A stretch of DNA of 64,000 bases from Hymenobacter jeongseonensis. GTDB taxonomy: Bacteria; Bacteroidota; Bacteroidia; Cytophagales; Hymenobacteraceae. The DNA is taken from NCBI RefSeq assembly GCF_015694725.1, contig NZ_JADQDQ010000002.1, forward strand, positions 434,001 to 498,000, written 5' to 3'. Positions 46,958 to 55,346 of the stretch are shown here, piece by piece; the stretch's first letter is position 1; every line of letters begins with the position of its first letter. Under the pieces are notes generated by a model that ran no database searches, was not told the DNA's origin, and worked only from the letters and a program-made list of their open reading frames with translations. The position numbers were made by a program, and so were the translations under genes.

Positions 46958-47318
46958 GAGGAGTCCGGGTAAAGGGTCTTGTCATAGTTCAGAGGATAGT
47001 GGCCATGCTCAGCGCAGTAATTAAACGCTAGATTACTTGACTTTTACAACAGCGCCAGCGGTGCTTGCCCGGCAATTTTTAGAGGCATTATGCGTTGTTG
47101 CTTTCTCGATTGCGCATCTCTAATTTAATAAAATTTAGCGTAAAATCACAATGCCAGTCCAGCTTTCCGAGCTGGTATTTCTGGCCGAGAGAAAAGGCCC
47201 GTCTTTGCGGCATTACGCCATTGTTGCCATTCGTTCCGAAGCGCTTTACCAGAACAATAGACCGTTGTTATATATGCGCAAACCGCTACCTTCCCGCCGC
47301 ATTTCCCCCACCCCATTC
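46958..47318. other. 361-base intergenic region upstream of the macroglobulin gene
   Basis: Between the divergent L,D-transpeptidase and macroglobulin genes. It contains an AT-rich patch (about 47110-47150) and a CCAG/CTGG hairpin near 47155-47180, but no clear TAnnTTTG element. An open frame in phase with the macroglobulin gene starts at 47151; I do not count it because the lipoprotein signal begins at 47319. Confidence 0.5.
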
Positions 47319-50300
47319 ATGCTGCTCCGATTCCGTTTCCTGCCGCTGCTACTTCTGCTGCTGGCCACCGCTTCGTGTTCCAAAAAAACGGCCCAAGAAC
47401 AGGCCGCGACCGAGCAAACCGACGGCGAAGAAATTGACCCGTATTCCAACCTCGTCTTCACGTTTGACGAGGCTGTGGTGGCCGACGCCCAACTCAACCG
47501 CTGGGACACCACGCAGTACGTGAAGTTCAACCCGGCCGTGCGCGGCAAGTTCAAGTGGACCGGGGACAGGGAGTTGACCTTTTCGCCGCTGGAGCCTTTC
47601 CGGCCCAGTACCGTGTTCGATGCCGCGCTGCAAACCCAAACCCTGCCCAGCGGCAAACAGCAGCTGGCGCTCAACCGCAAGCGCTTCCACACGCCCTACC
47701 TGGGCATGGCCACGCCGCAGGTATTCTACGGCCGCTCGACCAGGGCCGCGGGCACGGCCGAGCTGCGCGCCAACCTCGTGTTCAACTACCCCGTGCGGCC
47801 AGCCGACCTGCGCCCCCGCCTGCGTGTGAGCCAGGACGGCAAGCCCGTGGCCGTGCAGCTCATCACAGCCGAGCCGGACAAGATATTGGGCCTCAGCTTC
47901 GCGCAGGACGTGAAGCCCGGCGCTGCCCTCACGGTGGAAGTGGCGCCCGGCCTCACGCCCGCCGTGGGCGGCAAAGCCACCGAAAAGCCCCTTCTAGCCC
48001 AACTCGAAGTGCCCGAGCCGCAGCTGCTGGAAGTGCGCGAGCTGACGGGCTCGCTCTTGAACGGCGAGGCCGTGGTGACGGTGCTCACCAACCAGCCGGT
48101 GGCGATTTCGGACATTCAGACCTCGCTCAAAGTGTCGCCCAGCGCGCCCTTCGCCATTGAGGCGCTGGAAAGCGGCTTTGCGCTGAAGGGCAATTTTCAG
48201 GTGGGCAAAACCTACCAGGTGACCTTGGCCTCCGGGGCACGCGGTCTGCTGGGGGGGCAGTTGTATGAGCCCTACAGCCAGTCAGTTTCCTTCGCGGCCG
48301 AGCGGCCCAGCATCAGCTTTGCCAGCGGCGAGAAAGCCATGTACCTCGACGCCCTGGGCACCCGCAACCTGGGTTTGCGCATCAACGAGGTGCAGAAAGT
48401 GAAGGTGACCATCGCGAAGGTTTACGCCAACAACATCCAGCAACTGCTGCGCGGCGAGCCCTCCTACGGCTACCCCCGCTACGACGAGGACGAAGGGATG
48501 GACGAAGGCAGCAACCAGGACGAGAACGGCGAGTACATTGACCGCAGCTTCCGCTATTACGATACTGAAAACATCGGCAACGTCATTTCTGAGCGCACTA
48601 TTTCGGTGACCGGTCTGCCCAAGTCCGGCAGCCTGCGTCTGCTCAACCTCGACCTGAAAGCCCTGGAGTTTCAGGGTGCCATGAAGGGGCTGTACGTGGT
48701 GCGCGTGCAGGACACCGAGCGCCAGTGGCTGCAAGTGAGCAAGCTGGTGGCCGTGACCGACGTGGGGCTAATTGTTAAGCAGGGCGCCACCGGCGGCACG
48801 CTGGTATTCGCCAATTCCATCCGCACAGCCCAGCCGTTGGCGGACGTGACGGTAAACCTAGTAAGCAGCAACAACCAGGTAATCGGCACCGTGACGACCA
48901 ACGCGGCCGGCGTGGCCGCCTTCGACTCGGCCGCCAGCATGAAACGCTTCAAGCTGGGCATGGTAACGGCCACGAAAGGCGCCGACTTCACCTTCCTGGA
49001 TTTGGCCAAAAGCCGCGTCGAAACCTCGCGCTTCGAGGTGGGCGGCCTGACCAGCAACGCCGCCCGCTACCAGGCCTTCCTCTACGGCGACCGCAACCTG
49101 TACCGCCCCGGCGACACCGTGCGCACCAACACTGTGGTGCGCACCGAAGACTGGCAAACCCCGCCCGCCAACCTGCCCGTGAAAATCCGCCTGCTGCTGC
49201 CCACCGGCAAGGAATACAGCAGCCTGCGCCAGAAATTGAGCCAGGCCGGCTCGTTCGAAAGCCGCTTCATCCTGCCGCCCGCCGTGATGACCGGCCTCTA
49301 CACGCTGGAAGTGCTGACTGGCAACGACGTACTGCTGACGTCCAAGCAAATCAGCGTGGAAGAATTCATCCCCGACCGCCTGAAGGTGAGCGTAACCGCC
49401 GCGCCCACCGTGCTGCAGCCCGGCCAGACCGTGACGGCCACCATCAACGCCCAAAACCTATTCGGCCCGCCCGCGGCCGACCGGAAGTTTGAGGTCGAGT
49501 TTTCGCTGAAAGAAAAGACGTTTCAGCCCAAGAATTTCCCCGGCTATTCCTTTGCAATCAACAGCGGCGAGCGGCGCAAAACCACGTCGGAAAGCGACGA
49601 AGAAAACACCAGCAAACCCACTTCGCGCTTCGAAAAAACCGTGCGCGAGGGCGTGACCGATGCCGCCGGCCGAGCCACCGCCACCTTCGACGTGCCCGAA
49701 GTGCGCGACCTGGGCACGCTGGAAGGTGTGGCTTTCGCCACCGTGTTCGACGAAACCGGCCGGCCCGTGAACCGCCTCGCCACCTTCGACGTGCAGACCC
49801 AGGCCACGATGTTCGGCATCCAGGACATTCCGGAGCTGGTGAGCACGCGCCAGGCCACCGCCGTGCGCCTGCTGGCCCTCACGCCGCAGGGCCAGCCCAC
49901 CAGCGCCCAGGCCCAGGTGAAGCTGGTGCGCCTGCTCTGGGAAACCGTGCTCGAGCGCCAGGGCGGCCGCTACGTCTACAATTCGCAGCAGCGCGAGCAA
50001 ACGATATTGAGCCGGACGCAGGCTGTGGGCAACGGCACACCGTTCAGCTTCACGCCCCTGTACTCGGGCGAATACGAGGTGCGCATCAGCCGGCCGGGCG
50101 CCCTGAGCTACGTGGCGCAACGCTTCTACGCCTATGGATACGGCGACACCCAAGCCAATTCCTTCGAGGTAAACAACGAGGGCGAGGTGACCATCGAAGC
50201 CGACAAAGCCAAATACGAACCCGGCGAAACCGCCAACCTGCTGCTGAAAACGCCCTTAGCCGGCCGCGTCCTCGTGACCGTGGAGCGGGGCCGCGTGCTC

Positions 50301-52874
50301 GACCATTTCTACGTGACCACCGACCAGAAATCAGCCCAGGTCAAAATCCCAATCAAGGCCGAGCACGTGCCCAACGTGTACGTGACGGCCACGGCCATCC
50401 GCGCCATTTCCGACAACCGCCTGCCACTCACCGTGGCCCGCGGCTTCGTGCCGCTCACCGTGGAAAAGCCCGGTGCCCGCCTCGCGGTGGCCATTGCCGC
50501 GCCCGCCGCCAGCCGCTCGCAGACGTTCCAGACAGTGGAAATCACCACCGCGCCGCGAGCCCAGGTCACGCTGGCCGTGGTGGACGAGGGCATTTTGCAA
50601 ATCAAAAACTACCGCACGCCCGACCCCTACGGCTACTTCTACCAGAAGCGCGCCCTGGAAGTGTCGGCCTTCGACATGTACCCCTTCCTGCTGCCCGAGC
50701 TGGGCACCAGCAGCAGCGGGGGCGACGCCGCCGACCTGCGCCGCCGCACCAACCCCGTCCCCAACCGCCGCGTGAAACTGGTGGCCAAATGGAGCGGCGT
50801 CCTCACCGCTGATGCTGCCGGCAAGGTGCGCTACCGCGTGCGCGTGCCGCAGTTTTCGGGGGCGCTGCGCATCATGGCCGTGGCCTATAAGGACGATGCG
50901 TTCGGCAACGCCGAGCACACGATGAAGGTGGCCGACCCGGTTGTGATTTCGACAGCGCTACCGCGGTTTATGAGCCCGGGCGACACGATTGACGTGCCCG
51001 TGACGCTGACGAATACGACTGGCAAAAAGATGGGGGTTTCTGCTAAAATAAAGCTCAGCGGCCCACTAGTAAATGCTGAACCGTTTATTCCCTACGCTGA
51101 CATTCCTGGAAGTTATCAGCCCGTTGCACACGTTGTTCCAATTCCTCCAAATTCAGAGAATCGAGTAATTTTTCGCATCAAAGCTGCTCAAGGCATTGGA
51201 GCGGGGAGCGTTACCATTGTTGCAACGGGTCAAGTTCTTGGAGAGCCACAGAGCAAAGAAATATTTACCGAAACCATCGAACTACCTGTTCGCCCCGCCG
51301 CCTCGCTTGAAAAGCGCACCGGCAGCGGCGTGCTGGCCGGCGGCGCCTCGCTCCCGCTCAACCTGAAAACTGATTTCCTGCCCGCCTCGCTCACCAGCCG
51401 GCTGGTCATTAGCCGCTCGCCGCTCACGGAGTTCAGCAAGGACTTGCGCTACCTGCTGCAATACCCCTACGGGTGCCTGGAGCAAACCGTGTCGGCCGCT
51501 TTCCCGCAGCTCTACTACGCCGATTTGGCGGCCACTTTGCAGCAGAAAACCGGCGCCGAGCCTAAAGCCCAGCGCTACAATCCCAACTACCACGTGCAGG
51601 AGGCCATCCGCAAGATTGAGGCGATGCAGCTCTACAACGGCAGCCTGAGCTACTGGCCCGGCGGCGACTACGACAACTGGTGGGCCACCGCCTACGCCGC
51701 CCACTTCCTGCAGGAAGCCCAGCGCGCTGGCTTCGCCGTGAACAAGTCGGTGCTCGACAAAACCCTGCGCTACCTGCAGTTCCGCCTCAAAAAGCGCGAA
51801 ACCGAGCCCTACCAGTACTTCGACGCGAGCAACATCGCGCGGGAGCGCACCATCGCCAGCAAGGAAATCGCCTACTCGCTCTACGTGCTGGCCCTGGCCG
51901 GCCGCCAGGATGCCGTGGCCCTGAACTACTACAAAGCCAACCGCCAGCTGCTGGCCGAAGACTCCAAGTTCCTGCTGGCCTGCACCCATGCCCTGCTCGG
52001 CAACCAGCGCCAGTTTCGGGCCCTGCTGCCCACCAAGTTCGGCGGCGAAACAGCCGCCAAGCGCGCCTTGGACGGCTCCTTCTACTCCCCCATCCGCGAC
52101 CAGGGCCTCGTGTTGAACGCCCTGCTCGAAACCGACCCCAATAACCCGCAAGTATTGGAACTGGCCCGGCAGCTCAGCCGGCGGCTGCGCACCGCCGGCT
52201 GGCTCAATACCCAGGAGCGCGCCTTCGCCCTGCTGGCCCTGGGCAAAGTCGCCAAGCGCGACGCCAAGAGCACCGCCACAGCCACCGTCTCGGCCAATGG
52301 CAAAGCCCTCGGCAGCTTCACGGGCAAAGACCTGACGATGGCCAACGTAGCCAACCGAGACCTGAGCCTGCGCACCGCCGGCAGCGGCAACCTCTACTAC
52401 TTCTGGGAAACCGAAGGCATATCGGCCAGCGGCAAAGTGAAGGAGGAAGACAGCTACCTGAAAGTGCGCCGCCAGTTCCTGAACCGCGCCGGCCAGCCCC
52501 TGGGCTCGCCCACCTTCCGCCAGAATGATTTGGTGGTGGTCAAAATTACCATCGAAGCCGGCGACGCGGCCGGCACCATCAAGAACGTAGCCATCACCGA
52601 CCTGCTACCCGCCGGCCTGGAAATCGAAAACTCCCGCATCGGCGCGGTGCGCGAATTGGATTGGGCCAAAGACGCTGCCCAACCCGACTACCTCGACGTG
52701 CGCGACGACCGGATTAACTTCTTCACCACCGCAACCGGCAAGCCCAAGTCGTTCTACTACCTGGCCCGCGCCGTGAGCAAAGGCACCTTCAAGCTAGGCC
52801 CAGTGAATGCGGACGCCATGTACAATGCGGAATACCACAGCTACAATGGGGCGGGTGTAGTGCGGGTGCGGTAG
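47319..52874 (+). CDS. Bacterial alpha-2-macroglobulin lipoprotein
   Basis: An 1851-residue envelope protein thought to trap invading proteases. Lipobox ATASCSKK gives lipid-anchored Cys20. Macroglobulin-like beta domains fill roughly residues 40-1230 (a Ca/Asp/Glu-rich insert lies near residue 390), and the thioester-containing helical domain has YGCLEQT with Cys1386. A C-terminal receptor-like region ends NAEYHSYNGAGVVRVR. The size suits the YfhM/ECAM family. The following gene encodes PBP1C, the classic partner. Residues about 1239-1326 (51033-51296) are encoded with unusually AT-ending codons (see findings). Confidence 0.93.
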   Translation: MLLRFRFLPLLLLLLATASCSKKTAQEQAATEQTDGEEIDPYSNLVFTFDEAVVADAQLNRWDTTQYVKFNPAVRGKFKWTGDRELTFSPLEPFRPSTVFDAALQTQTLPSGKQQLALNRKRFHTPYLGMATPQVFYGRSTRAAGTAELRANLVFNYPVRPADLRPRLRVSQDGKPVAVQLITAEPDKILGLSFAQDVKPGAALTVEVAPGLTPAVGGKATEKPLLAQLEVPEPQLLEVRELTGSLLNGEAVVTVLTNQPVAISDIQTSLKVSPSAPFAIEALESGFALKGNFQVGKTYQVTLASGARGLLGGQLYEPYSQSVSFAAERPSISFASGEKAMYLDALGTRNLGLRINEVQKVKVTIAKVYANNIQQLLRGEPSYGYPRYDEDEGMDEGSNQDENGEYIDRSFRYYDTENIGNVISERTISVTGLPKSGSLRLLNLDLKALEFQGAMKGLYVVRVQDTERQWLQVSKLVAVTDVGLIVKQGATGGTLVFANSIRTAQPLADVTVNLVSSNNQVIGTVTTNAAGVAAFDSAASMKRFKLGMVTATKGADFTFLDLAKSRVETSRFEVGGLTSNAARYQAFLYGDRNLYRPGDTVRTNTVVRTEDWQTPPANLPVKIRLLLPTGKEYSSLRQKLSQAGSFESRFILPPAVMTGLYTLEVLTGNDVLLTSKQISVEEFIPDRLKVSVTAAPTVLQPGQTVTATINAQNLFGPPAADRKFEVEFSLKEKTFQPKNFPGYSFAINSGERRKTTSESDEENTSKPTSRFEKTVREGVTDAAGRATATFDVPEVRDLGTLEGVAFATVFDETGRPVNRLATFDVQTQATMFGIQDIPELVSTRQATAVRLLALTPQGQPTSAQAQVKLVRLLWETVLERQGGRYVYNSQQREQTILSRTQAVGNGTPFSFTPLYSGEYEVRISRPGALSYVAQRFYAYGYGDTQANSFEVNNEGEVTIEADKAKYEPGETANLLLKTPLAGRVLVTVERGRVLDHFYVTTDQKSAQVKIPIKAEHVPNVYVTATAIRAISDNRLPLTVARGFVPLTVEKPGARLAVAIAAPAASRSQTFQTVEITTAPRAQVTLAVVDEGILQIKNYRTPDPYGYFYQKRALEVSAFDMYPFLLPELGTSSSGGDAADLRRRTNPVPNRRVKLVAKWSGVLTADAAGKVRYRVRVPQFSGALRIMAVAYKDDAFGNAEHTMKVADPVVISTALPRFMSPGDTIDVPVTLTNTTGKKMGVSAKIKLSGPLVNAEPFIPYADIPGSYQPVAHVVPIPPNSENRVIFRIKAAQGIGAGSVTIVATGQVLGEPQSKEIFTETIELPVRPAASLEKRTGSGVLAGGASLPLNLKTDFLPASLTSRLVISRSPLTEFSKDLRYLLQYPYGCLEQTVSAAFPQLYYADLAATLQQKTGAEPKAQRYNPNYHVQEAIRKIEAMQLYNGSLSYWPGGDYDNWWATAYAAHFLQEAQRAGFAVNKSVLDKTLRYLQFRLKKRETEPYQYFDASNIARERTIASKEIAYSLYVLALAGRQDAVALNYYKANRQLLAEDSKFLLACTHALLGNQRQFRALLPTKFGGETAAKRALDGSFYSPIRDQGLVLNALLETDPNNPQVLELARQLSRRLRTAGWLNTQERAFALLALGKVAKRDAKSTATATVSANGKALGSFTGKDLTMANVANRDLSLRTAGSGNLYYFWETEGISASGKVKEEDSYLKVRRQFLNRAGQPLGSPTFRQNDLVVVKITIEAGDAAGTIKNVAITDLLPAGLEIENSRIGAVRELDWAKDAAQPDYLDVRDDRINFFTTATGKPKSFYYLARAVSKGTFKLGPVNADAMYNAEYHSYNGAGVVRVR

Positions 52875-52906: not shown

Positions 52907-52994
52907 CCTGTCATGCAGAGCGCAGCGAAGCATCTCGCCCGCTATGTTGAGGTAGTAATCCAGCGAGATGCTTCGCTGCGCTCTGCATGACGGG
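52907..52994. repeat. Dispersed palindrome, type B (macroglobulin/pbpC gap)
   Basis: Arms of 32 nt (52907-52938 with 52963-52994) with one wobble-type mismatch; the arm core reads CATGCAGAGCGCAGCGAAG. The centre has AGGTAGTAATCC. It fills most of the gap between two genes that are probably co-transcribed. Confidence 0.92.
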
Positions 52995-53016
52995 CTGGTT
53001 TGTTTTATAAGGCGAA

Positions 53017-53024
53017 TATCTTTG
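53017..53024 (+). promoter_or_regulatory. -7 element TATCTTTG abutting the pbpC start
   Basis: An exact TAnnTTTG match with only GCT between it and the ATG. Transcription from it would begin at or inside the start codon, giving a leaderless mRNA. There is no TTG at the proper -33 spacing. Confidence 0.45.
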
Positions 53025-53027
53025 GCT

Positions 53028-55346
53028 ATGAATCGGCGGGCATTATTTCGACTCGTAGCAGGGGGCTTAGGCGGCTTGCTGATTCTATTGTGCCTCAACC
53101 GACTTTTTCCGATTCCTCCCGCACCGCGCTATTCGCCCATCGTGCTGGCGGCAGACGGCAGCGTGCTGCATGCCTACCTCAACCCCACGCAGAAGTGGCG
53201 CATGAAAACCGAGTTGGCGGAGATTACGCCAGCCTTGCAGCAGGCCATCATCAATAAGGAAGACCGGTATTTCCGGTACCATTTCGGCGTCAATCCCGTG
53301 GCCATTGTGCAGGCTGCGGGGCGAAACATCTTTGGCAAGGGGCGCACCACTGGCGCCAGCACTATCACCATGCAAGTAGCCCGGCTGCTGGAACCTAAGG
53401 AGCGCACCTTCGGCAATAAGCTTAAGGAGATGCTACGCGCCGTACAGTTGGAAGCCCACTACAGCAAGGCCGAAATCCTGCAGCTTTACCTGAACTTGGT
53501 GCCGTATGGCGGCAACATTGAAGGCGTGAAATCGGCGGCATTGTTGTACTTCCAGCAACCGCCCGACTACCTCTCGCTGGCCCAAACCGTGACGCTGGCC
53601 ATCATCCCGAACCAGCCGCGGGCACTGGTGCTGGGCAAGAACAACGCTCTGATTGTGGCCGAGCGCAACCGCTGGCTGCGGCAGTTCCAGAAGCAACACC
53701 TGTTCCCCGACCAGGACATTGAAGACGCCCTAGCCGAGCCGCTGGACGTGCAGCGCCACGCGGCGCCTGCGCTGGCCCCGCACTTGGCGCGGCGCTTGGT
53801 CACGCAGTTTGTGAGGCAGCCCAACATTCGCTCCACCTTGCAGCGCGGCCCCCAAACCAAGGCCGAAGACCTAACCAAAAACTACGTGCGCCGTCTGCAT
53901 GAATTAGGCATCAATCAGGCCGCGGTGCTGGTGGTGAACAATCGTACTCGCGCCGTAGAAGCGTACGTCGGCTCAGCCGATTTTGCGGACGCCGCTAGCG
54001 CTGGGCAGGTAGACGGCGTGCGGGCTGTTCGCTCGCCGGGCAGTACGCTGAAGCCGTTTTTGTATGCGCTGGCGCTGGACCGCGGCCTCGTCACGCCCAA
54101 GCTGAAACTACCTGACGTACCCAGCAATTTCAGCGGCTTTCAACCCGAGAACTTTGACAAGAACTTCAGCGGCGAAGTGACCGTGGAGCGCGCCCTTACC
54201 TACTCGCTCAACATCCCAGCCGTGCGCGTGTTGAGCGAAATGGGCGTACCCACCTTCACCGACAAGCTGCGCGATGCGGGTTTCAAAAGCGTCGCCAAAA
54301 CCGCCCCCCGGCTCGGCCTCAGTACCGTGCTGGGCGGTTGCGGCGCCACGCTGGAGGAGCTGACGGGGCTCTTTGTGACGCTGGCGGATGGGGGACGATA
54401 CGCACCGCTTGTGCTTACTGAAAAAGTGGGTAAACAAAAGCCATTGACCAAATCGGAATTGGTAAGCCCTGCTGCCGCCTTTCTCATTACCGACATCCTG
54501 GCCCAGCACACCCGACCCGACCTTCCGCTAGGCTACCAAGGCAGCGCCCGCTTACCCAAAATTGCCTGGAAAACCGGTACCAGCTACGGCCGCCGCGACG
54601 CCTGGAGCATCGGCTACAACAAGGACTACACCGTGGGCGTGTGGGTAGGCAATTTCAGCGGCGCAGGCAGCCCCGCGCTCACAGGCACCGACATTGCCAC
54701 GCCCCTGCTCTTCGACATCTTCAACGCCCTGGCCTACAACTCGCCCAACCGCTGGGCCACCCCGCCCGCCAGCCTCGACTTCCGGCTGGTGTGCGCCGAA
54801 ACCGGCCTCGTTCCCGGCGAAAATTGCCCCAACCAGCTCATCGACTACTACTTGTCCGGCATTTCTTCAGCCCGGCGCTGCGAGCACCAGAAAGAAGCCC
54901 TCGTATCGGCCGATGGAGCCATTTCCTACTGCCGCGCCTGCGTGCCCGAAGCGGGATTTCGGCGCCAATTGTTCCCCAACCCGGCGCCCGAAGTACTAGC
55001 GTTTCGAGAAGCCCAGGGCCTGCCCGCCACCCGCCTGCCAGCCCACAATGCGGCCTGCCGCCTAGTGCGCGGCACCGACGCAACCGGCGCAGCGCTGGCT
55101 ATAACTTCGCCCCTGGCCAATGCCGAATACCTGCTCAACCGTGCCGAAAAGCAGCAGTTGCTGCTCAGCTGCGCGGCCGGCAGCGAGGTACGGCAGGTAT
55201 TCTGGTACGTAAACGACCGGTTTCTGCGCGCCGCGGCGGCCACGGAGCGGGTGTTCTTCCGGCCACCCACGGGCAACGTAAAAATCTCCTGCGCCGACGA
55301 CCACGGGCGCAACGTGGATATTCAGCTGCAAATAGCTGAACTGTAG
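53028..55346 (+). CDS. pbpC: Penicillin-binding protein 1C
   Basis: A 772-residue bifunctional peptidoglycan synthase of the PBP1C group. An N-terminal membrane helix (about 7-25) is followed by the glycosyltransferase domain (INKEDRYFRYHFGVNP, GASTITMQVARLL, AVQLEAHYSKAEILQLYLN). The transpeptidase domain has SPGSTLKPF with Ser339, YSLNIPAV as the SxN motif and KTGTSYG (Lys515). A PBP1C-specific C-terminal domain starts near residue 690. PBP1C usually pairs with alpha-2-macroglobulin, as here. The ATG at 53028 fits the membrane helix and follows a -7 element. Confidence 0.95.
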   Translation: MNRRALFRLVAGGLGGLLILLCLNRLFPIPPAPRYSPIVLAADGSVLHAYLNPTQKWRMKTELAEITPALQQAIINKEDRYFRYHFGVNPVAIVQAAGRNIFGKGRTTGASTITMQVARLLEPKERTFGNKLKEMLRAVQLEAHYSKAEILQLYLNLVPYGGNIEGVKSAALLYFQQPPDYLSLAQTVTLAIIPNQPRALVLGKNNALIVAERNRWLRQFQKQHLFPDQDIEDALAEPLDVQRHAAPALAPHLARRLVTQFVRQPNIRSTLQRGPQTKAEDLTKNYVRRLHELGINQAAVLVVNNRTRAVEAYVGSADFADAASAGQVDGVRAVRSPGSTLKPFLYALALDRGLVTPKLKLPDVPSNFSGFQPENFDKNFSGEVTVERALTYSLNIPAVRVLSEMGVPTFTDKLRDAGFKSVAKTAPRLGLSTVLGGCGATLEELTGLFVTLADGGRYAPLVLTEKVGKQKPLTKSELVSPAAAFLITDILAQHTRPDLPLGYQGSARLPKIAWKTGTSYGRRDAWSIGYNKDYTVGVWVGNFSGAGSPALTGTDIATPLLFDIFNALAYNSPNRWATPPASLDFRLVCAETGLVPGENCPNQLIDYYLSGISSARRCEHQKEALVSADGAISYCRACVPEAGFRRQLFPNPAPEVLAFREAQGLPATRLPAHNAACRLVRGTDATGAALAITSPLANAEYLLNRAEKQQLLLSCAAGSEVRQVFWYVNDRFLRAAAATERVFFRPPTGNVKISCADDHGRNVDIQLQIAEL

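Follow-up and report, generated by a model that had tools for sequence, protein, structure and literature searches.

Can one domain of a gene that is otherwise conserved throughout a bacterial genus have a history of its own? The question is raised by a gene for a bacterial alpha-2-macroglobulin (A2M) in a 64,000-nucleotide stretch of Hymenobacter jeongseonensis DNA (contig NZ_JADQDQ010000002.1, positions 434,001 to 498,000; hereafter the window, whose internal coordinates are used throughout). An initial annotation, made from the letters alone, had described an island of AT-ending codons in this gene just before the thioester domain (TED), with a recombined fragment from a lower-GC relative as the simplest idea and, as the more interesting one, exchange that diversifies part of a protease trap. 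Comparison with orthologues indicates that the core A2M gene of Hymenobacter has a fixed site occupied by a hypervariable cassette, of which the island is one allele; the cassette makes up most of MG9, the macroglobulin (MG) domain that does precede the TED, and exchange of cassettes has almost certainly taken place.

The low-GC3 island

Over the whole open reading frame (ORF), 1,908 codons counting the stop, 82.1% of codons end in G or C (third-position GC content, GC3). The hand count of the initial annotation, 29 G/C-ending codons of the 88 at 51033-51296 compared to 82% for the gene, was exact, and the segment is in frame, as had been said; the flanks, put at about 85% GC-ending, gave 0.85 and 0.86 in two 85-codon stretches outside the cassette. 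The residue numbers attached to the island, 1239-1326, are right if counted from the inner Met57 (47319) and correspond to codons 1295-1382 of the full ORF. GC content at first and second codon positions (GC1 and GC2) is not reduced within this segment. Recalculation confirmed the drop in GC3, with a log-likelihood gain of 57.9 for the best change-point segment (Table 1). The lowest G/C-ending count in any 88-codon window among 2,000 codon shuffles of the gene was 53, which rules out a chance origin. For the 85 cassette codons (1291-1375), the gene's codon usage applied to the cassette's amino acids predicts a GC3 of 0.81, compared to the 0.34 observed, and so the dip is not caused by the amino acids.

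We scanned 1,393 crudely called genes (2.03 Mb, 39% of the genome) for interior GC3 dips. The A2M island came first, with a log-likelihood ratio (LLR) of 55.5 compared to 35.5 for the next, which rules out the dip as a general property of the genome. Its edges are abrupt, again as described: relative to the nearest orthologue, L004 (loci are denoted by L numbers), DNA identity falls from 0.93 in codons 1281-1290 to 0.37 in codons 1291-1300 at the left edge, and rises from 0.77 in codons 1371-1380 to 0.93 in codons 1381-1390 at the right. The edge of protein variability (codons 1291-1375) sits a few codons to the left of the GC3 edge.

The cassette in Hymenobacter and other genera

The orthologue set consisted of the window and 111 loci, which gave 90 rows after those identical past residue 100 were merged, 88 after removal of two rows that are the window's own gene (L001 and L002), and 84 Hymenobacter rows, the window included, after removal of four Adhaeribacter/Rufibacter rows. 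At least four of the 84 (L067, L068, L075, and L087) belong to the GTDB genus coded here as g5, and their records bear the Hymenobacter name. We profiled the 84 genes in 20-residue blocks over residues 61-1900. Blocks outside 1281-1380 have a mean GC3 of 0.76-0.95 and a mean residue identity of 0.42-0.97; mean GC3 drops to 0.62 at residues 1281-1300, and residues 1301-1380 have a GC3 of 0.40-0.49 and an identity of 0.14-0.37. The segment between the conserved sequences TIDVPVTLTNTT and IELPVRPA varies in length from 65 to 125 amino acids (aa). In 73 of the 84 genes it is a cassette of 75-125 aa, with a median GC3 of 0.38 (range, 0.25-0.71; 72 of the 73 below 0.6), and in the other 11 it is a 65-aa form with a GC3 of 0.51-0.88. 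The 65-aa form is also found, with GC3 near that of the flanks, in the four Adhaeribacter/Rufibacter rows. Loci from other genera have either the 65-aa form (13 of 20) or one of 69-90 aa (7 of 20), and GC3 is near that of the flanks in all.

Some A2M gene match is present in all 120 genomes of the window's genus that were searched. A cassette profile, which includes flanks, so that a bare or very divergent copy could escape it, was run against them at an E value of 0.01 and gave exactly one match in 114, in a frame of at least 760 aa; five genomes had no match, and one with 6% contamination (G094) had two. Thirteen of the 116 matches are 255 nucleotides (nt) long, the length of the 65-aa form with flanks, and the remainder are 282-435 nt. 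In a family search, the matches in all eight g5 genomes listed are of the long kind (294-369 nt), and the matches listed for genera g2, g3, g4, and g116 are 249-252 nt. The eight g5 cassettes have a GC3 of 0.38-0.58, compared to 0.84-0.95 over the 200 codons that precede them. On these comparisons and among the genomes examined, the hypervariable AT-ending state is a trait of Hymenobacter taken broadly, which covers the codes g1 and g5. Read coverage had been suggested as a check for an assembly patch; an artefact of this kind is excluded because dozens of named records from independent assemblies show the same pattern.

No MG9 match was found in G029, G071, G072, G083, and G090, where A2M matches are only split or small and partial, some with stops. 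The A2M gene of the well-assembled G071 and G072 looks decayed from its sequence; the G090 assembly is incomplete. Two genomes carry partial extra copies of the A2M C terminus, at G056:C4:395262-395824, about 5 kb downstream of the intact gene, and at G002:C1:3362051-3362215 (about 1.6 kb); they may be left over from duplication or from recombination at the locus.

Cassettes and backbones have different histories

If cassettes had been inherited with the rest of the gene, their pairwise identities should follow those of the backbones. In the 77 of 84 rows longer than 1,750 aa, the correlation between the two is r = 0.16 (0.22 among cassettes other than the 65-aa form), compared to r = 0.72-0.89 for 15 control windows of equal length. 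Orthologues share the codon bias, which is one half of what the initial annotation had named as grounds for rejecting its idea; the other half, a vertical phylogeny of the segment, they do not show, and their differing cassettes bear out the suggestion of diversifying exchange. Among the 45 closest backbone pairs (92-95% DNA identity; pairs with fewer than 800 shared codons excluded), the cassettes are 14-42% identical in amino acids in 44, the exception being L080/L097, which have a 65-aa cassette in common. The cassettes of L085 and L009 are 22% identical on backbones 93% identical, and those of L010 and L011 are 37% identical on backbones 98% identical; the cassettes of L010 and L014 are 99% identical. 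Cassette length also jumps between close backbones.

Single linkage at 45% identity sorts the cassettes of the 88 rows into 54 families, 40 of them singletons. The multi-member families are dispersed on the backbone tree (FastTree, 87 rows): family F1 (L011, L024, L028, L057, L082, and L095) requires six changes for its six members, and the 65-aa family 11 changes for 13 members. Only two of the 14 multi-member families, F8 and F13, need a single change, and F13 consists of two Adhaeribacter. The breakpoints vary, divergent DNA reaching into the left border in L003, L005, L015, and L017.

Selection within allele families

We compared the proportions of nonsynonymous (pN) and synonymous (pS) differences in 16 hand-chosen within-family pairs, using Nei-Gojobori counts from our own script. 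In all 16, pN is well below pS. Three deep pairs, L011/L024, L006/L096, and L024/L082 (pS/pN of 0.82/0.13, 0.81/0.18, and 0.72/0.11), have synonymous sites near saturation and few replacements, while backbone pS is 0.33-0.46. By these counts several allele families are under purifying selection, and the alleles are probably functional and old; the members of the deep pairs look as though they came to their present hosts separately, from allele lineages that were already old. A faster synonymous rate in the cassette is not needed, since cassette pS is not above backbone pS in three of the closest pairs, L010/L014 (0.15 compared to 0.23), L063/L079 (0.24 and 0.30), and L050/L086 (0.37 and 0.42). 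Amino acid change is also ongoing, because the nonsynonymous divergence dN reaches 0.25-0.32 in L083/L093, the window/L009, and L021/L085.

Composition and source of the alleles

Twenty of the 536 genes on the window's own contig (C21) have a GC3 below 0.45, among them a DUF3732 gene and its neighbors, a family 2 glycosyltransferase cluster, and an HsdS-like specificity subunit. Such gene classes are known for lateral exchange. The codon usage of 14 low-GC3 genes of the contig fits 72 of the 73 non-65-aa cassettes better than does that of their own gene, compared to 3 of the 11 cassettes of the 65-aa form, and for the window's cassette it predicts a GC3 of 0.33 where 0.34 is observed. The non-65-aa cassettes have a GC1 of 0.53 and a GC2 of 0.42, compared to 0.63 and 0.55 in the 65-aa form, and contain 26% of K, N, I, F, and Y, compared to 14.5%. 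Judged by composition, the alleles are of the accessory type in their codon usage. AT drift toward the composition of noncoding DNA was rejected as an origin, since the noncoding GC of C21 is 0.53 and drift to that background cannot reach the cassette median of 0.38.

The HsdS-like gene itself (Methylase_S, C21:353404-354702, equivalent to L179:13404-14702) is low in GC3 and falls in the composition class of the cassettes.

Domain architecture and structure of the A2M

Eight Pfam matches above cut-offs follow the order of a type I bacterial A2M (bMG3, MG2, bMG5, bMG6, bait-region, A2M, TED, and bMG10), and the protein has the CxEQ thioester motif of that type. A pbpC gene lies downstream (Table 1), an adjacency typical of type I bacterial A2Ms. 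The nearest named relatives are from Hymenobacter and the nearest solved structures are the Salmonella and Escherichia coli proteins; from its sequence, the window's A2M is a predicted protease trap. Translation probably begins at Met57, since the alignments of the full-length orthologues listed start at around query residues 24-61, or at 87-90 in two cases.

Table 1. Coordinates of features at the A2M locus, in window positions
Feature	Position	Strand	Remarks
Bacterial alpha-2-macroglobulin gene	47151..52874	+	ORF 1907 aa; likely start Met57 (47319); lipobox TASC then SKK, read from sequence
Bait-region domain PF07703, residues 1014-1151	50190..50603	+	Conserved, high GC3
A2M domain PF00207, residues 1214-1297	50790..51041	+	3' end overlaps cassette start
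Hypervariable cassette, residues 1291-1375, most of MG9	51021..51275	+	Between conserved TIDVPVTLTNTT and IELPVRPA
Maximum-likelihood low-GC3 segment	51036..51290	+	26 of 85 codons G/C-ending
Thioester domain PF07678, matched part, residues 1429-1543	51435..51779	+	Pfam match
Thioester motif CLEQ, Cys1442	51474..51485	+	C, E, and Q invariant in 54 aligned sequences
bMG10 (C-terminal MG) domain PF17973, residues 1770-1894	52458..52832	+	Pfam match
pbpC-type penicillin-binding protein	52968..55346	+	Transgly, Transpeptidase, BiPBP_C; without comparable island

A model of residues 1195-1907 (predicted confidence scores pLDDT 77.7 and pTM 0.61) matches activated E. coli A2M (PDB ID 4ziq) with Z = 25.2 and a root mean square deviation (rmsd) of 6.6 over 594 residues, and the native form (4ziu) with Z = 25.5 and an rmsd of 16.6 over 598. 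Because of this difference in rmsd, the modeled domains of the TED arm are taken to match known A2M; they are arranged as in the activated form, or else their arrangement is uncertain. The longest allele, the 125-aa cassette of L085, was modeled alone (pLDDT 80), with strands present in its long insertion. It matches residues 1008-1120 of Salmonella A2M (Z = 13.4, rmsd 2.0 over 110) and the corresponding domain of complement C3, C4, and C5 (Z = 13-14). Since erythrocyte protein 4.2, an unrelated Ig-type chain, gives Z = 13.2, the fold alone is not specific: the model indicates an Ig-type fold, and the identity as MG9 comes from position and sequence. On the modeling evidence, cassette alleles keep the MG fold. 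By fold, MG9 is equivalent to the domain at residues 826-935 of complement C3, which we take to be the one called MG7 there. The name depends on the numbering, being MG9 in that of PMC4498604 and MG7 in that of the title of 4ziu. In cleaved E. coli A2M, MG9 is part of an arm, with the TED, CUB, and C-terminal MG domains, that closes on the protease (PMC4498604).

A probable exchangeable domain and its possible partner

We think it rather probable that the whole pattern reflects an exchangeable MG9 cassette drawn from an AT-rich accessory pool, with diversity kept by a changing foreign partner. Recombination in the conserved DNA on either side would replace a cassette, in full or nearly so, with that of another strain or species, its breakpoints shifting over a few tens of bases; we infer ordinary flank recombination because the breakpoints differ and no bracketing repeat, site motif, or local copy was found. 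The alleles would come from a pool composed like the AT-rich accessory genome, which would account for their low GC3. Every allele would be a working conserved domain, and many unrelated alleles would coexist because a rare surface is favored, that is, through frequency-dependent selection. The trap machinery (bait-region domain, thioester, TED, and C-terminal MG), which is conserved in sequence, would stay constant while only the MG9 part of the moving thioester arm varies. Contact at the MG9 face would most likely be made by a foreign protein that evolves fast and gets as far as the envelope; candidates are a protease and factors with which a competitor, predator, or phage blocks or exploits A2M. 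That there is selection for diversity we consider very likely; given such selection, a foreign protease, inhibitor, toxin, or phage factor is a somewhat better candidate than self-recognition. A bolder version, possible but doubtful, is that Hymenobacter A2M would be a complement-like envelope defense with MG9 as its exchangeable recognition module, a laterally shared, immune-receptor-like repertoire on an invariant thioester effector, selected by an equally variable enemy protein.

When a gene is conserved across a genus except for one domain, whose replacement outpaces the divergence of species, this is strong sequence evidence of a changing biological opponent, and MG9 points to the surface where contact with it would occur. 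The natural cassette swaps offer ready-made material for finding the partner, and the locus is an example of an accessory-genome fragment inside a core gene.

Several observations weigh against this explanation. The sample holds one genome per species, and in it no within-species exchange and no recombination tract of identical DNA was seen. A recombination site encoded in the borders was rejected, codon conservation there being unexceptional, with only codons 1280 and 1286 standing out. The window's cassette with its flanks had no match in plasmids and phages, and comparison of a cassette alignment (A1, 66 of the 88 rows) with viral contigs gave 21 stretches that fit a pattern and no relative, so carriage by plasmids, phages, or viruses was rejected at the level of these two queries; nor were such cassettes present in the 20 loci from other genera. 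The codon-usage test is partly circular, its 14 reference genes having been hand-picked for low GC3. A direct role as a phage receptor appears less likely for this A2M, because known bacterial A2Ms are periplasmic (PMC4498604). Two families on close backbones, F8 (L021/L085; cassette and backbone pS, 0.54 and 0.20) and F10 (L059/L104; 0.62 and 0.23), have cassettes that differ far more than their backbones at both kinds of site, and three 65-aa pairs have a cassette pS of 0.34-0.43 compared to 0.19-0.26 for the backbone. Such pairs may reflect rapid point mutation, or a synonymous clock that runs faster in the cassette, and this would weaken the argument for old alleles.

These same pairs are what speaks for rapid evolution in place, through relaxed constraint or local hypermutation and AT-biased drift, with no exchange, and a correlation between cassette GC3 and gene GC3 (rho = 0.47) points the same way. 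We nevertheless consider it very unlikely, since it leaves unexplained the related cassettes on distant backbones, the low pN within families, the three pairs in which synonymous change is no faster than in the backbone, a median GC3 below that of the contig's noncoding DNA, and the length jumps. The fragment from one lower-GC relative, taken as a single event without functional meaning, would account for codon usage foreign to the gene and for abrupt edges, and the part of that idea which holds is that the segment's history differs from the rest of the gene. As a complete explanation it is refuted by the sequence comparisons and we give it almost no weight: nearly every one of the 84 Hymenobacter rows has a low-GC3 segment of its own, related cassettes recur on distant backbones, and the genomes searched yielded no donor genus of lower GC.

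A fixed site with clean edges would also suit a dedicated generator (a shufflon, an inverting segment, silent-cassette conversion, or a diversity-generating retroelement), which is the least credible of the alternatives to exchange from a shared pool. A DNA search of the window's own genome for silent copies or a template matched the island alone, with no near-identical template repeat, in the case of a retroelement without a search aimed at reverse transcriptase; the further same-genome copies expected of a shufflon or silent-cassette system were likewise absent at the sensitivity of that search and of the flank-bearing profile, which found one match in nearly every genome. The cassette is not enclosed by any repeat of at least 14 bases, and its breakpoints are variable. 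Self or kin recognition, in which MG9 alleles would be specificity tags read by like alleles or by a cognate partner, is a less remote alternative, though still an unlikely one. Its many allele groups, signs of exchange, and within-group conservation would fit the pattern of the variable domain of TraA of myxobacteria (PMC6372800). Against it, a hypervariable island to match is missing from the neighboring pbpC in the window and in the 42 of 80 named loci that were comparable, and the thioester motif is intact. The CSKK lipoprotein start, moreover, presumably lacks a clear surface-export signal.

Comparison with known systems

In the open-licence PMC literature we found no paper that combines Hymenobacter with alpha-2-macroglobulin, and among the matches listed there (titles and the starts of abstracts) no report of hypervariability in MG9 or another domain of a bacterial A2M. 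The nearest known system in mode is VARTIG, the variable Thermococcales Ig protein (arCOG07710). In both, a large protein has one hypervariable domain of the Ig type, which seems to have been diversified by recombination across species and not among loci of the same genome (PMC8416519), and the domain phylogeny is discordant with that of the host protein. VARTIG differs in being archaeal, with a C-terminal variable domain within a module of variable downstream genes (PMC8416519), while the Hymenobacter cassette is internal, AT-ending, and part of a thioester A2M core gene; the window's protein is of a different family, and the similarity is one of mode only. The VARTIG authors liken their protein to alpha-2-macroglobulin-type and complement proteins, and report no evidence of shuffling in the C-terminal regions of archaeal A2M homologues (PMC8416519).

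The E. coli (ECAM) and Salmonella A2Ms have the same domain types and thioester motif (PDB ID 4ziq, 4ziu, and 4u48; PMC4498604). TraA offers a likeness of pattern: one receptor with one variable domain, many recognition groups, and signs of horizontal domain exchange (PMC6372800). We do not claim that its domain and the A2M cassette are related. To our knowledge, no TraA-type function has been described for an A2M. A further parallel is HsdS, the specificity subunit of type I restriction systems, in which exchangeable target-recognition domains lie between conserved stretches. The window's genome holds an HsdS-like gene of the same low-GC3 class as the cassettes, although HsdS is an intracellular DNA-binding protein and A2M an envelope protease trap.

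Neighboring genes and other GC3 dips

As a covarying neighbor of the cassette, pbpC was rejected, since it shows a short loop dip only. This dip, at residues ~476-500 (window 54393-54467), has an identity of 0.39 and a GC3 of 0.69 across the window and 42 loci. The L,D-transpeptidase gene is comparable in the window and three loci, the flanks ending before it elsewhere.

Two other GC3 dips differ in character. An RsmH/MraW gene (L256:17370-18293, equivalent to C23:317370-318293) has a 45-codon patch with a GC3 of 0.24, compared to 0.75 in the rest. In 29 other Hymenobacter genes the protein is conserved in this region, with GC3 ranging from 0.42 to 0.91 and lowest in near relatives; in contrast to the A2M island, the AT patch here is synonymous and specific to a lineage. 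The second strongest dip in the genome scan, in a DUF4394/fn3 surface-type protein (C21:118132-122886, L167/L168), is gradual and extends over codons 232-341.

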